Positions 27,475 to 45,809 of a stretch of DNA of 62,725 nucleotides are shown here, in pieces. This DNA comes from Oscillospiraceae bacterium. GTDB taxonomy: Bacteria; Bacillota; Clostridia; Lachnospirales; Lachnospiraceae. The stretch lies in contig JAETOO010000020.1 of assembly GCA_021771715.1 (NCBI GenBank), positions 1-62,725 on the forward strand. The letters run 5' to 3'. The position numbers and the translations under genes are program-made. The notes under the pieces were generated by a model that searched no databases, was not told the origin of the DNA, and was given only the letters and a program-made list of their open reading frames with translations. The first letter of the stretch is position 1. The number at the start of each line of letters is the position of its first letter.

Positions 27475-28935
27475 ATGCTGGGCGCTATTTATGCGAGATA
27501 CTCTGCAGGACCAAACCAGACGGACCAGTCCATCGAGGGCCAGGTCGCTGACTGCCAGGCTTATGCAGAGAGAAACGGGATCCAGATCGTTGAAATATAT
27601 GCCGACCGGCACATCTCAGGGAAGAGCATCGTCGGCCGGAATGAGTTCCAGAGGATGCTGCACGACGCGGAGCAGCATCGCTTCGAGTGCGTGATCGTCT
27701 GGAAGATCGACCGCTTCGGGCGTGACCGGCAGGACATCGCCCTCAGTAAAATGAAGCTGAAAAAGGCGGGCGTCCGTTTGCTGTATGCTGAGGAGTCTGT
27801 CCCGGAGGGTCCGGAGGGGATCATCCTGGAGAGCGTTCTGGAAGGCCTGGCCGAGTATTACTCCGCAGACCTCCGGCAGAAGATCGTCAGAGGCATGAGG
27901 GAGACCGCGAAAAAGGGACAGTATTGTGGGGCGCCGCTGCCGATCGGCTACACGGTGGACGACGAGAAGCACATCATCGTCGACGAGGAGAAGGCTGCCG
28001 TTGTCCGGGAAGCCTTCCGGATGCACAACGCCGGGGCCCAGACGAAGGAGCTGGTCGAGCTCTTCCGAAAGCACGGCGTCACTGGCCAGCGCGGGAAGCC
28101 GATCACCCAGGCCGTGATCTATCGGATGTTACGGAACGAGAAGTACCTCGGCCGCTTCGAGATCCAGGGGGTTGAGATCCTGACGGATCCCATCATCGAC
28201 CTGGCCACCTTCGAGGAAGCGGCCAAACACTTCGGGACGCCGCGCAATAACGCGGCAGGGAGGGCAAAAGTGGACTATTTGCTGAGCTGTAAATGTTTTT
28301 GTTCATACTGCGGGGCGATGCTGAACGGGGAGTCCGGCACCAGTAAAACGGGGAAGGTGTACCACTATTACAAGTGCGGCGCGAAGAAGCGCGGCGAGAA
28401 GTGCGAGCTGAAGCCGATCCCCCGGGATCACTTCGAGGATCGGGTCATTGAGGCCACGGTCGAGGACATGCTGACCGAGGACATGATCGAGAAGCTCACG
28501 GTCCGGATCCTGGAGATCCAGGAGCAGGAGGACGCTCTGGATCCGGCCGCAGCATACCGGAAGCAGCTCGACTCAAACCGGAAGCGCCAGCGGAACATAT
28601 TGGACGCCATCGAGGAGGGCACCGGGGCCCGGGGCCTTGCCGGTCGCCTGGCGGAACTGGAAGCCGAAGAGGAGGAGCTGCTCGTGGAGATCGAGCGGGC
28701 AGAAATGAAAAAGCCCCGGCTCACCAGTGAGGCGGTCGGGGCTTGGCTTCGTTCGTTCAGAAATGGGGACACAAAAGACGCCGCCTTCCGGCAGCGTCTC
28801 GTTGACACGTTCATCGCCCGGATCGAGGTCAGAAACGGCCAGGCGATGATCTTCTACAATATACAAGAAAAAGGACCGCACTCAAAAGTTCGAGTACGGC
28901 CCGAATGGTGGAAGCAATGGGACTCGAACCCATGA
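27475..28935 (+). CDS. Large serine recombinase (phage integrase) ending inside tRNA-Val
   Basis: A 486-residue site-specific recombinase. Domains in order: resolvase catalytic domain (IYARYSAGPNQ, nucleophilic Ser near residue 10; VWKIDRFGRD), recombinase domain (about 150-250, GYTVDDEKHIIVDEEKA), zinc ribbon (CKCFCSYCGAM and CGAKKRGEKCELK), and a C-terminal coiled coil. ATG 27475 lies 9 nt behind GGAGG. The last codons (WWKQWDSNP) and the TGA stop read the tRNA-Val gene backwards, so the attachment site overlaps the gene's 3' end. Confidence 0.95.
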   Translation: MLGAIYARYSAGPNQTDQSIEGQVADCQAYAERNGIQIVEIYADRHISGKSIVGRNEFQRMLHDAEQHRFECVIVWKIDRFGRDRQDIALSKMKLKKAGVRLLYAEESVPEGPEGIILESVLEGLAEYYSADLRQKIVRGMRETAKKGQYCGAPLPIGYTVDDEKHIIVDEEKAAVVREAFRMHNAGAQTKELVELFRKHGVTGQRGKPITQAVIYRMLRNEKYLGRFEIQGVEILTDPIIDLATFEEAAKHFGTPRNNAAGRAKVDYLLSCKCFCSYCGAMLNGESGTSKTGKVYHYYKCGAKKRGEKCELKPIPRDHFEDRVIEATVEDMLTEDMIEKLTVRILEIQEQEDALDPAAAYRKQLDSNRKRQRNILDAIEEGTGARGLAGRLAELEAEEEELLVEIERAEMKKPRLTSEAVGAWLRSFRNGDTKDAAFRQRLVDTFIARIEVRNGQAMIFYNIQEKGPHSKVRVRPEWWKQWDSNP

Positions 28936-28981
28936 CCTCCCGCTAGTCAGGCGAGCGCTCTCCCAGCTGTGCTATGCTTCC
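28906..28981 (-). tRNA. tRNA-Val (anticodon GAC), site of prophage integration
   Basis: A 76-nt tRNA with encoded CCA. The acceptor stem is 7 bp (GGAAGCA/TGCTTCC), the D-arm is GCAC-AGCTGGGA-GAGC, the anticodon stem is CTCGC/GCGGG with loop CTGACTA, and the T-arm is ATGGG-TTCGAGT-CCCAT. The anticodon is GAC. Two oddities lie on the phage-proximal 3' side: a T-G wobble pair in the anticodon stem (GCGAG would pair perfectly) and pyrimidine T37 beside the anticodon. Both fit a 3' half supplied by the phage. Confidence 0.93.
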
Positions 28982-45071: not shown

Positions 45072-45099
45072 TAAAAAAGAGCCTGCCGCTGCAGACTCT
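45072..45099 (-). terminator. Terminator after the type III toxin gene
   Basis: On the minus strand: stem AGAGTCTGC/GCAGGCTCT (45091-45099 with 45078-45086), followed by TTTTTT. One mismatch within the stem. It closes the leftward toxin unit. Confidence 0.7.
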
Positions 45100-45140
45100 T
45101 AAATTCCCATAATGTCATGAAAATAAGAAAGTGTGGAATA

Positions 45141-45572
45141 TTAATATTTTCTGGCAAAAGCTCTCGGATGCATTGGGGCCGTTCCGTTTATGTGCCTGAT
45201 ATATGTATCCACGTAGTCATGAACTTCCTGGACGATAGTTGGAAGGTTCTTCATCATTTCATTGTATTCGTCCTGATCGACGATGGCGGCCGTGGATGAA
45301 TCAAAATAATCCTTGTCTTTGATGATTACAATCTTTGAATAATCCAGACCTGATTTCGTTTTCTTTGAACGTGCCGTTCCGGTGAACATAAATGCGTTTT
45401 TGTGTCCTAGGGAAGAACGGAATGGAACACAAATAAAGTAGTCGTCGTGCGATTCAATCAGCAGGCAAGTATAGGGACGCCCGTGTTTGTGCATTAGTTC
45501 AGGGTATGTAGCAGAAGGGTAGTCCTGGGTGAATTTTGATGATAGGAGTGATAATGCGGAATCATATTCCAT
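45141..45572 (-). CDS. Type III toxin (ToxN/TenpN/CptN-type endoribonuclease)
   Basis: A 143-residue protein starting MEYDSALSLLSSKF at ATG 45572, behind GAGGTG. The run RPYTCLLIESHDDYFICVPFRSSLGHK, then GLDYSKIVIIKDKDYF and DQDEYNEMMKN, has the features of CptN/TenpN-like type III toxins: a compact, basic, sequence-specific RNase. The decisive evidence is upstream: two tandem RNA repeats, a promoter and a terminator in the canonical type III order. The RNA would bind and silence the toxin. Subfamily is uncertain. Confidence 0.8.
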   Translation of the reverse strand: MEYDSALSLLSSKFTQDYPSATYPELMHKHGRPYTCLLIESHDDYFICVPFRSSLGHKNAFMFTGTARSKKTKSGLDYSKIVIIKDKDYFDSSTAAIVDQDEYNEMMKNLPTIVQEVHDYVDTYIRHINGTAPMHPRAFARKY

Positions 45573-45592
45573 TTTGCGACACCTCACAGCAT

Positions 45593-45628
45593 AAAAAAGC
45601 GAGGTCGACCAGTTGGAGTCAACCTCGC
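45593..45628 (-). terminator. Terminator between RNA antitoxin and toxin gene
   Basis: An 11-position stem with one mismatch (45618-45628 with 45599-45609) is followed on the minus strand by TTTTTT (45593-45598). It sets the high RNA-to-mRNA ratio that type III systems need. Confidence 0.85.
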
Positions 45629-45638
45629 CGGGAGTTTT

Positions 45639-45744
45639 CTTCGCTCGGTCAATTTTTATTTTACCGATGTGTCGGAACCGTCACACATCATCTTCGCTCG
45701 GTCAGTTTTTATTTTACCGACGAGTCGGAACCGTCACTCGTCAT
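45639..45744 (-). repeat. Two 53-bp antitoxin repeats
   Basis: Copy A is 45639-45691 and copy B is 45692-45744, period exactly 53 bp, 48 of 53 bases identical. Differences concentrate in the two arms of the hairpin and preserve pairing. Confidence 0.92.
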
Positions 45745-45780
45745 CATTTAGCGAAGGAAAGAAATACTTCTTTCACTTAT

Positions 45781-45809
45781 AGTATATGCGAAAGAGGGCT
45801 TTTTATCAA
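45781..45809 (-). promoter_or_regulatory. Promoter of the type III TA locus
   Basis: On the minus strand: TTGATA (45804-45809), 17-bp spacer, TATACT (45781-45786). The predicted start lies just before the leader that can pair with the repeats. Confidence 0.8.

Follow-up and report, generated by a model that had tools for sequence, protein, structure and literature searches.

In published type III toxin-antitoxin systems the toxin cuts a repeat RNA and the resulting pseudoknots block the toxin, as described in passages of PMC5086642 and PMC4627078. In TenpIN of Photorhabdus luminescens, the family represented by the NCBIfam profile NF047358, tandem RNA repeats are followed by a terminator and then by the toxin; the locus considered here shares both this toxin family and this order. 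It lies on contig JAETOO010000020.1 of an Oscillospiraceae bacterium (GCA_021771715.1, a draft assembly of 54 contigs), where the window denotes the whole stretch of 62,725 nt that was analysed; all features of the locus are on the minus strand. The preferred reading, given a probability of about 0.75, is of a chromosomal TenpIN locus whose toxin is truncated, probably recently, and most likely inactive, with its RNA antitoxin intact; units of this antitoxin carried by phages without a toxin are most likely decoys. By itself the locus is a new member of a known family; what is new is the phage units and their genomic setting, and the unit's life outside the system, chiefly in phage tRNA arrays, is the part that specialists would not expect.

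The toxin belongs to TenpIN by its profile match: searched with window residues 2-143, NF047358 is reached at 155.5 bits (cut-off 90) over profile positions 1-129 of 141, and this is the sole NCBIfam match of the protein. Pfam and PADLOC searches returned no match for the toxin, nor did a search of the PDB chains by sequence. The ToxN fold was tested on the full-length homolog P0004 and not on the window protein; Foldseek alone gave no match under 0.001 for the predicted P0004 model, and in the structural comparison five solved type III toxins rank first, with alignments to the model that run on to residue 156 or 157, as those of the MazF chains do not. An earlier note on this DNA, made from the letters alone, had proposed a type III system and a profile search of the protein against toxin families as a check; that search narrows the proposal to TenpIN, and the structural ranking supports the type III identity. 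With a toxin above the curated cut-off, tandem repeats upstream, a terminator, the ToxN fold on P0004 and a pseudoknot supported by covariation, the window locus is a TenpIN.

The antitoxin comprises two units, at 45694-45745 (unit 1; stem 1 GACGAGT/ACTCGTC, 79.8 bits with the covariance model R1) and 45641-45692 (unit 2; stem 1 GATGTGT/ACACATC, 79.6 bits), each with stem 2 CGGTT/GACCG. Both keep all their pairs, and the RNA antitoxin is intact. As read from an alignment of 61 of the 104 distinct units, the antitoxin unit is an H-type pseudoknot in which both stems covary. Stem 1 has 7 bp; stem 2, between the hairpin loop and the 3' tail, has 5. Pairing holds in 99.3% of 732 cells, two-sided changes occur in 6 of the 12 pairs (equalled by 8 of 500 shuffles), and the covariation score of the unit is 0.358 against 0.113 in shuffles, a value reached by none of the 500 and not approached by slid versions of the structure. 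Stem 2 alone has two pairs with two-sided changes, over 6 cells (values attained by 6 and 0 of 500 shuffles), and across the near-homolog loci stem 1 is fully paired in 153 of 157 units. Two points weigh against the strength of this support: the count of further pair types does not stand out from shuffles (369/500), and the shuffle figures are not probabilities, because the shuffles leave the relatedness of the sequences in. The nested hairpin chosen by plain folding, in which GGT after stem 1 pairs with ACC of the tail, was rejected, with 91.3% of cells paired and no two-sided change.

The hairpin that the earlier note considered to be under selection corresponds to stem 1 of the pseudoknot, so that its claim of a selected RNA structure is upheld and extended to covariation over 61 distinct units. 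Comparison of the 53-nt repeats (45638-45690 and 45691-45743, 91% identical) likewise bears out its count of differences: of five differing positions, four make up two compensatory base-pair changes within a single hairpin (alignment columns 6/25 and 8/23) and the fifth lies in a loop. These changes are old and inherited in many species, since 24 of 71 two-unit loci have the window's stem-1 combination in the same order; the stem-1 sequences of units 1 and 2 differ in 36 of the 71, and another combination occurs in 9, of which 8, together with L028, also differ between units in stem 2 with both sides changed. The covariance search proposed in the earlier note, run with the repeat-unit model R1, finds just the two copies in the window (E ~5e-17), a test of uniqueness and not of significance because both copies were used in building the model, and finds more copies in relatives. 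Rfam release 15 has no match to the window antitoxin.

The leader heptamer CTTCGCT (45750-45756), complementary to AGCGAAG after each repeat (45692-45698 and 45639-45645), had been suggested to close the structure by pairing with either repeat. A clamp was examined in 81 loci by comparing the leader just 5' of unit 1 with the sequence directly 3' of stem 2 of the last unit; the mean helix score is 17.46, against 14.69 (maximum 15.41) in 100 permutations of the tails among loci and 11.8 with shuffled leaders. The arms vary by clade (CTTCGCT/AGCGAAG, CTTCATCA/TGATGAAG, TTCATCAC/GTGATGAA, TCAGCT/AGCTGA and others), and of the 71 two-unit loci 48 have a leader that matches the last tail best, 8 one that matches the first, and 15 one that matches both equally. 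A leader that pairs with each repeat alike thus gives way to one that pairs mainly with the tail of the last unit: the closing role survives, as a covarying clamp, and the partner changes. As the leader prefers the last tail, the clamp probably encloses the whole array, its 5' arm in the window being the heptamer and its 3' arm AGCGAAG after unit 2 (45639-45645). Weighing against this assignment, the window is among the 15 ties, the tail of unit 1 (45692-45698) matching the leader equally well, and at least 6 of the 81 loci (L019, L027, L029, L036, L039 and L049) have a weak helix or another register.

The locus had also been described as complete, and this description fails on the toxin. The TenpN open reading frame (ORF; 45141-45572) encodes 143 aa and ends in a premature stop at 45141-45143; beyond it lie 13 untranslated in-frame codons resembling the C-terminus of the homologs, with one difference from P0001, and then the old stop (45099-45140). 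When the stop is read across, the NF047358 match reaches position 140 of 141 with the stop reported inside it; similarly, the family search of 294 genomes places a TAA inside the window match, and the 14 other matches over the cut-off have no stop. Among the matches listed, 114 of 120 homologs are 154-180 aa long, and relatives carry intact copies. The gene is therefore not full-length. The part lost, from residue 144 on, holds the last helix of the P0004 model (148-155) and four residues nearly invariant in homologs, T147, L148, Y150 and F151; without this helix the window toxin is most likely inactive, and because of the truncation phage resistance by the window locus is doubtful. The codons after the stop still read like those of the homologs, with the single difference, so the truncation is probably recent.

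Several observations weigh against a dead toxin and would suit a shortened TenpN that still works, perhaps as a weaker toxin, which would make the locus a functional TenpIN with an attenuated toxin. The remaining codons appear to be under strong purifying selection, with dN/dS of 0.04-0.06 against five near homologs (dS saturated, 1.3-2.7) and 22 synonymous versus 4 replacement codons unique to the window in a comparison with four near homologs, so that either the stop arose recently or the shortened protein still works; all residues invariant in homologs before position 143 are kept. Furthermore, the divergent homolog P0027 (80% identical, on a 1.7-kb contig) is cut off at the same residue, at either a stop codon or the contig end, and the L013 toxin ends 8 residues early. 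However, the missing end is conserved and forms a helix, the five type III toxins extend over it in the structural alignments as the MazF chains do not, and the homolog-like codons past the stop point to a recent event; the attenuated form is considered unlikely. That the stop is a sequencing or assembly error in an intact TenpIN would fit the draft state of the assembly and the good preservation of the rest of the locus, but a protein ending at the window stop (called from an inner start) forms a cluster of 3 member sequences on 9 contigs, which makes such an error very improbable. A recently truncated, most likely inactive toxin beside an intact antitoxin is thus retained.

The arrays of relatives normally hold two units, and unit number is associated with the state of the toxin. 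In a classing of 96 loci (the window copy, 80 homolog loci and 15 from genome scans, leaving aside eight duplicates, the distant or contig-edge loci L092-L102 and most of L104-L111), one-unit loci have 3 intact toxins, 9 broken and 3 none, while loci with two or more units have 66, 7 and 4 (Fisher p 1.1e-6, or 4.7e-6 without the 'none' classes, for loci that are not independent); two of the loci are contig-edge and two were without a unit by the classing script. Covariance searches give L065 and L170 two units and L103 one, which changes the counts to 2/10/3 and 68/7/4. The class is doubtful for L046, with just an N-terminus, and for L030, where another two-unit array lies 2 kb upstream, and L066 and L169, with one unit and an intact toxin, go against the trend. 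The pattern fits an antidote that is not reduced while the toxin is alive, or equally repeats that are lost after its death. Homologs without upstream repeats, which the earlier note had named as counter-evidence, are absent among near relatives: wherever the toxin match reaches 35% identity or more, at least one unit is present (that of L103 found by covariance search alone). The two exceptions, L051 and L092, run into the contig end, 17 and 3 nt upstream respectively. In the distant homologs L093-L096 (25-29% identity) this unit, the only one looked for, was not found. Among individual loci, L076 (2016-2382) is a TenpIN with at least 6 units, and L070 (3879-3930) has a single unit whose 5' part resembles unit 1 of its clade and whose 3' part resembles unit 2, as if recombined, with a stem 2 mismatch; it adjoins a toxin whose match ends at residue 141. 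The genome of the window itself has a second, distant TenpIN-like toxin (L002:1501-1911, minus strand; C47:24049-24435; 48 bits, under the cut-off) behind terminator-like and promoter-like sequence, where no R1 unit was found.

Units also occur apart from any toxin. They are present in 19 of 294 genomes of relatives and in 6 of 391 drawn from the class, the window's own included in both counts, and in seven of the 19 no toxin follows them (G010, G036, G098, G112, G146, G166 and G174, part of the sequence behind the G174 unit being masked). The G036 array lies between TrbL- and PrgI-like conjugation genes, and the surroundings in G010 are the same at 92-96% identity; L010, L011 and L012 occupy the same site with an intact toxin, so the G036 and G010 arrays look like natural toxin deletions that kept both units. 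A different toxin downstream of the orphan antitoxin was considered and set aside for L115 and L117, where the next gene is a convergent TrbL-like one; downstream of the other orphan arrays ORFs were listed. Plasmids gave toxin matches in 38 records, all below 60% identity (the best 20 of the 38 at 26-32%), and no match to the unit DNA.

The largest set of toxin-less units comes from viral contigs. A search pattern made of the DNA of the unit loop and the A-rich stretch finds 25 viral contigs and a looser one two more; in 19 of these 27 a single unit sits inside a tRNA array, between tRNA-Phe and tRNA-Lys in families A (6 contigs) and B (10 contigs), between tRNA-Leu and tRNA-Gly in family C (2 contigs) and beside tRNA-Gly in family D (1 contig); the tRNA-Phe of L156 is incomplete at the locus end. 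In all, 22 of the 27 viral records have one unit, among them L176 and L177, with no tRNA within 16 kb, and L149, whose stem 2 is partly broken and which lies beside a PHROG 3314 protein that also follows the family-B array. L158, L165 and L166 have two or three units each, L150 has three and a toxin, and L159 two and a toxin. Together with MT835481.1, the one INPHARED record with a (degenerate) unit, this makes 28 records, all with a unit and 2 with a toxin profile match, although records may be fragments; INPHARED phages gave no toxin match. These toxin counts rest on a search of whole records, as a profile scan of the viral contigs found none but missed the L159 toxin and was set aside. Among the literature matches listed, a coverage that leaves out preprints and most subscription papers, none describes TenpI units within the tRNA arrays of phages. 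Two other RNAs were seen in the arrays: a skipping-rope RNA (RF02924) near the unit in families C and D (L148:773-842, L154:11103-11175) and a tmRNA gene in the family-A array of L142, L144 and L152.

Like the pseudo-ToxI of phage PhiTE, the single phage units are most likely decoys that would neutralise TenpN. Conservation of the loop and A-stretch is no evidence here, as the search pattern fixed both; the pattern left the outer five pairs of stem 1 free, and stem 1 is nevertheless fully paired in 17 of 18 distinct viral units, with several different stem sequences. The 3' strand of stem 2, also free, is standard except in L149 and the L151/L153 branch of family B, where one stem-2 pair is lost. 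The units might instead be passive passengers of tRNA arrays, or serve another RNA function; the decoy reading presumes expression, the family C and D arrays also hold the skipping-rope RNA and so collect other RNAs, and the losses in stem 2 point the same way. The complementary arms flanking some of the phage units, which are unrelated to the host clamp, weaken the decoy reading as well: they pass the shuffle test in family D alone (p 0.01; A about 0.1, F 0.08; B, C and E not passed), and predicted folds close them in A, D and E and partly or not in B, C and F. The paired stem 1, the tRNA-Phe/tRNA-Lys slot shared by families A and B, and a toxin match in only 2 of 28 records make the passenger explanation doubtful, and the decoy remains the favoured role.

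IMG/VR includes prophage contigs. The viral hits could thus be supposed to be pieces of host chromosome misplaced in viral contigs, as L150 and L159, which have units with a toxin as in host loci, would suggest; however, terminase and portal genes follow the array in the two contigs tested, L142 (A) and L143 (B), and 19 units stand among phage tRNAs and not behind a host-type promoter. Misplaced host DNA is unlikely for families A and B, and scarcely credible as an explanation of the whole set. The terminase of family B shares 38% identity with its SPbeta and phi3T counterparts and 46% with that of a faecal phage.

In an intact system, one promoter would yield a short RNA whose leader pairs with the tail of the last unit, the clamp enclosing two H-type pseudoknots; read-through of the terminator would supply some toxin mRNA, and TenpN, predicted to be an RNase of ToxN fold, would cut the RNA into units whose pseudoknots block it. 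In the window copy the antitoxin gene would be what remains, since the toxin, without its last helix, is most likely inactive; elsewhere toxin-less units occur in pairs on conjugative elements and singly within the tRNA arrays of phages. A broader proposal, considered slightly better than even, is that gut Clostridia phages, SPbeta-like ones included, carry a single TenpI pseudoknot in their tRNA arrays, some with a clamp stem of their own, as a decoy that disarms the host TenpN during infection, that the orphan conjugative arrays serve the same end, and that the window locus, its antitoxin intact and its toxin truncated, is a chromosomal step towards an orphan antidote. The pseudoknot, clamp and covariance model obtained from relatives make the antitoxin findable without its toxin, and the search yields apparent phage decoys; if these work, many phages would bring with them a preformed RNA countermeasure, which would indirectly indicate that clostridial TenpIN acts against phages in nature and would make it worth seeking other non-tRNA guests in phage tRNA arrays.

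The remaining parts of the locus are in place as the earlier note had them: a promoter with a 17-bp spacer, a leader, the two 53-nt repeats, a terminator and the 143-residue ORF. The sigma-70-type promoter TTGATA-17-TATACT (45781-45809) agrees with 10 of 12 consensus positions; a scan of the region finds 2 sites against about 1.0 expected per shuffle, and support for it comes mainly from position. A leader hairpin, GAAAGAA/TTCTTTC (45757-45774), is predicted by folding, and similar hairpin-like leaders are visible by eye in relatives. The rho-independent terminator between antitoxin and toxin (45598-45629) has a 13-bp stem with 7 G-C pairs, where 0.5 would be expected, and for the 221 nt from 45570 to 45790 the predicted fold is better than that of any of 200 shuffles (z -4.3). 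The neighbourhood consists of sugar-metabolism genes. The prophage with which the locus had been said to share the window is real (5341-28981; head, portal, terminase, helicase and polymerase genes), its serine-recombinase-type integrase gene ending at a tRNA-Val (28906-28981); the locus is not part of it, as the phage genes tested at 5.3-28.9 kb end at this tRNA, about 16 kb away.

Compared with known systems, the window locus differs from TenpIN of Photorhabdus luminescens in its truncated toxin, and the clostridial subfamily is characterised by two 51-54-nt units and the leader-tail clamp, the Photorhabdus repeats lying outside this comparison. The PDB matches from sequence and structure searches include no TenpN structure. 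CptIN of Eubacterium rectale (PDB 4RMO) has a toxin without sequence match to the window toxin; its unit, in the part of PMC4627078 that describes it, is 45 nt with a one-base loop 1, against about 52 nt and a two-base loop 1 in the alignment for the window family. The ToxIN and AbiQ toxins (PDB 4ATO, 2XD0, 7D8O, 4GLK) likewise lack a sequence match, and the ToxI and AntiQ units are given in an excerpt of PMC5086642 as 34-36 nt repeated 2.8-5.5 times. Among phages, a cyanophage with three antitoxin genes and many tRNAs carries, in the portion of PMC9964418 concerned, protein antitoxins, and phages that escape ToxIN by deletions including tRNA genes take a different route (PMC5449768, in part). 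The closest counterpart is the pseudo-ToxI of phage PhiTE, a type III antitoxin-like RNA on a toxin-less phage, for which sections of PMC3475682 report suppression of ToxN after repeat expansion; before expansion its 1.5 repeats, which lie between two genes, do not make up a full unit. The phage TenpI units, unlike that of PhiTE, each form one full two-stem unit, lie mostly in tRNA arrays of at least four families, and would act against TenpN.
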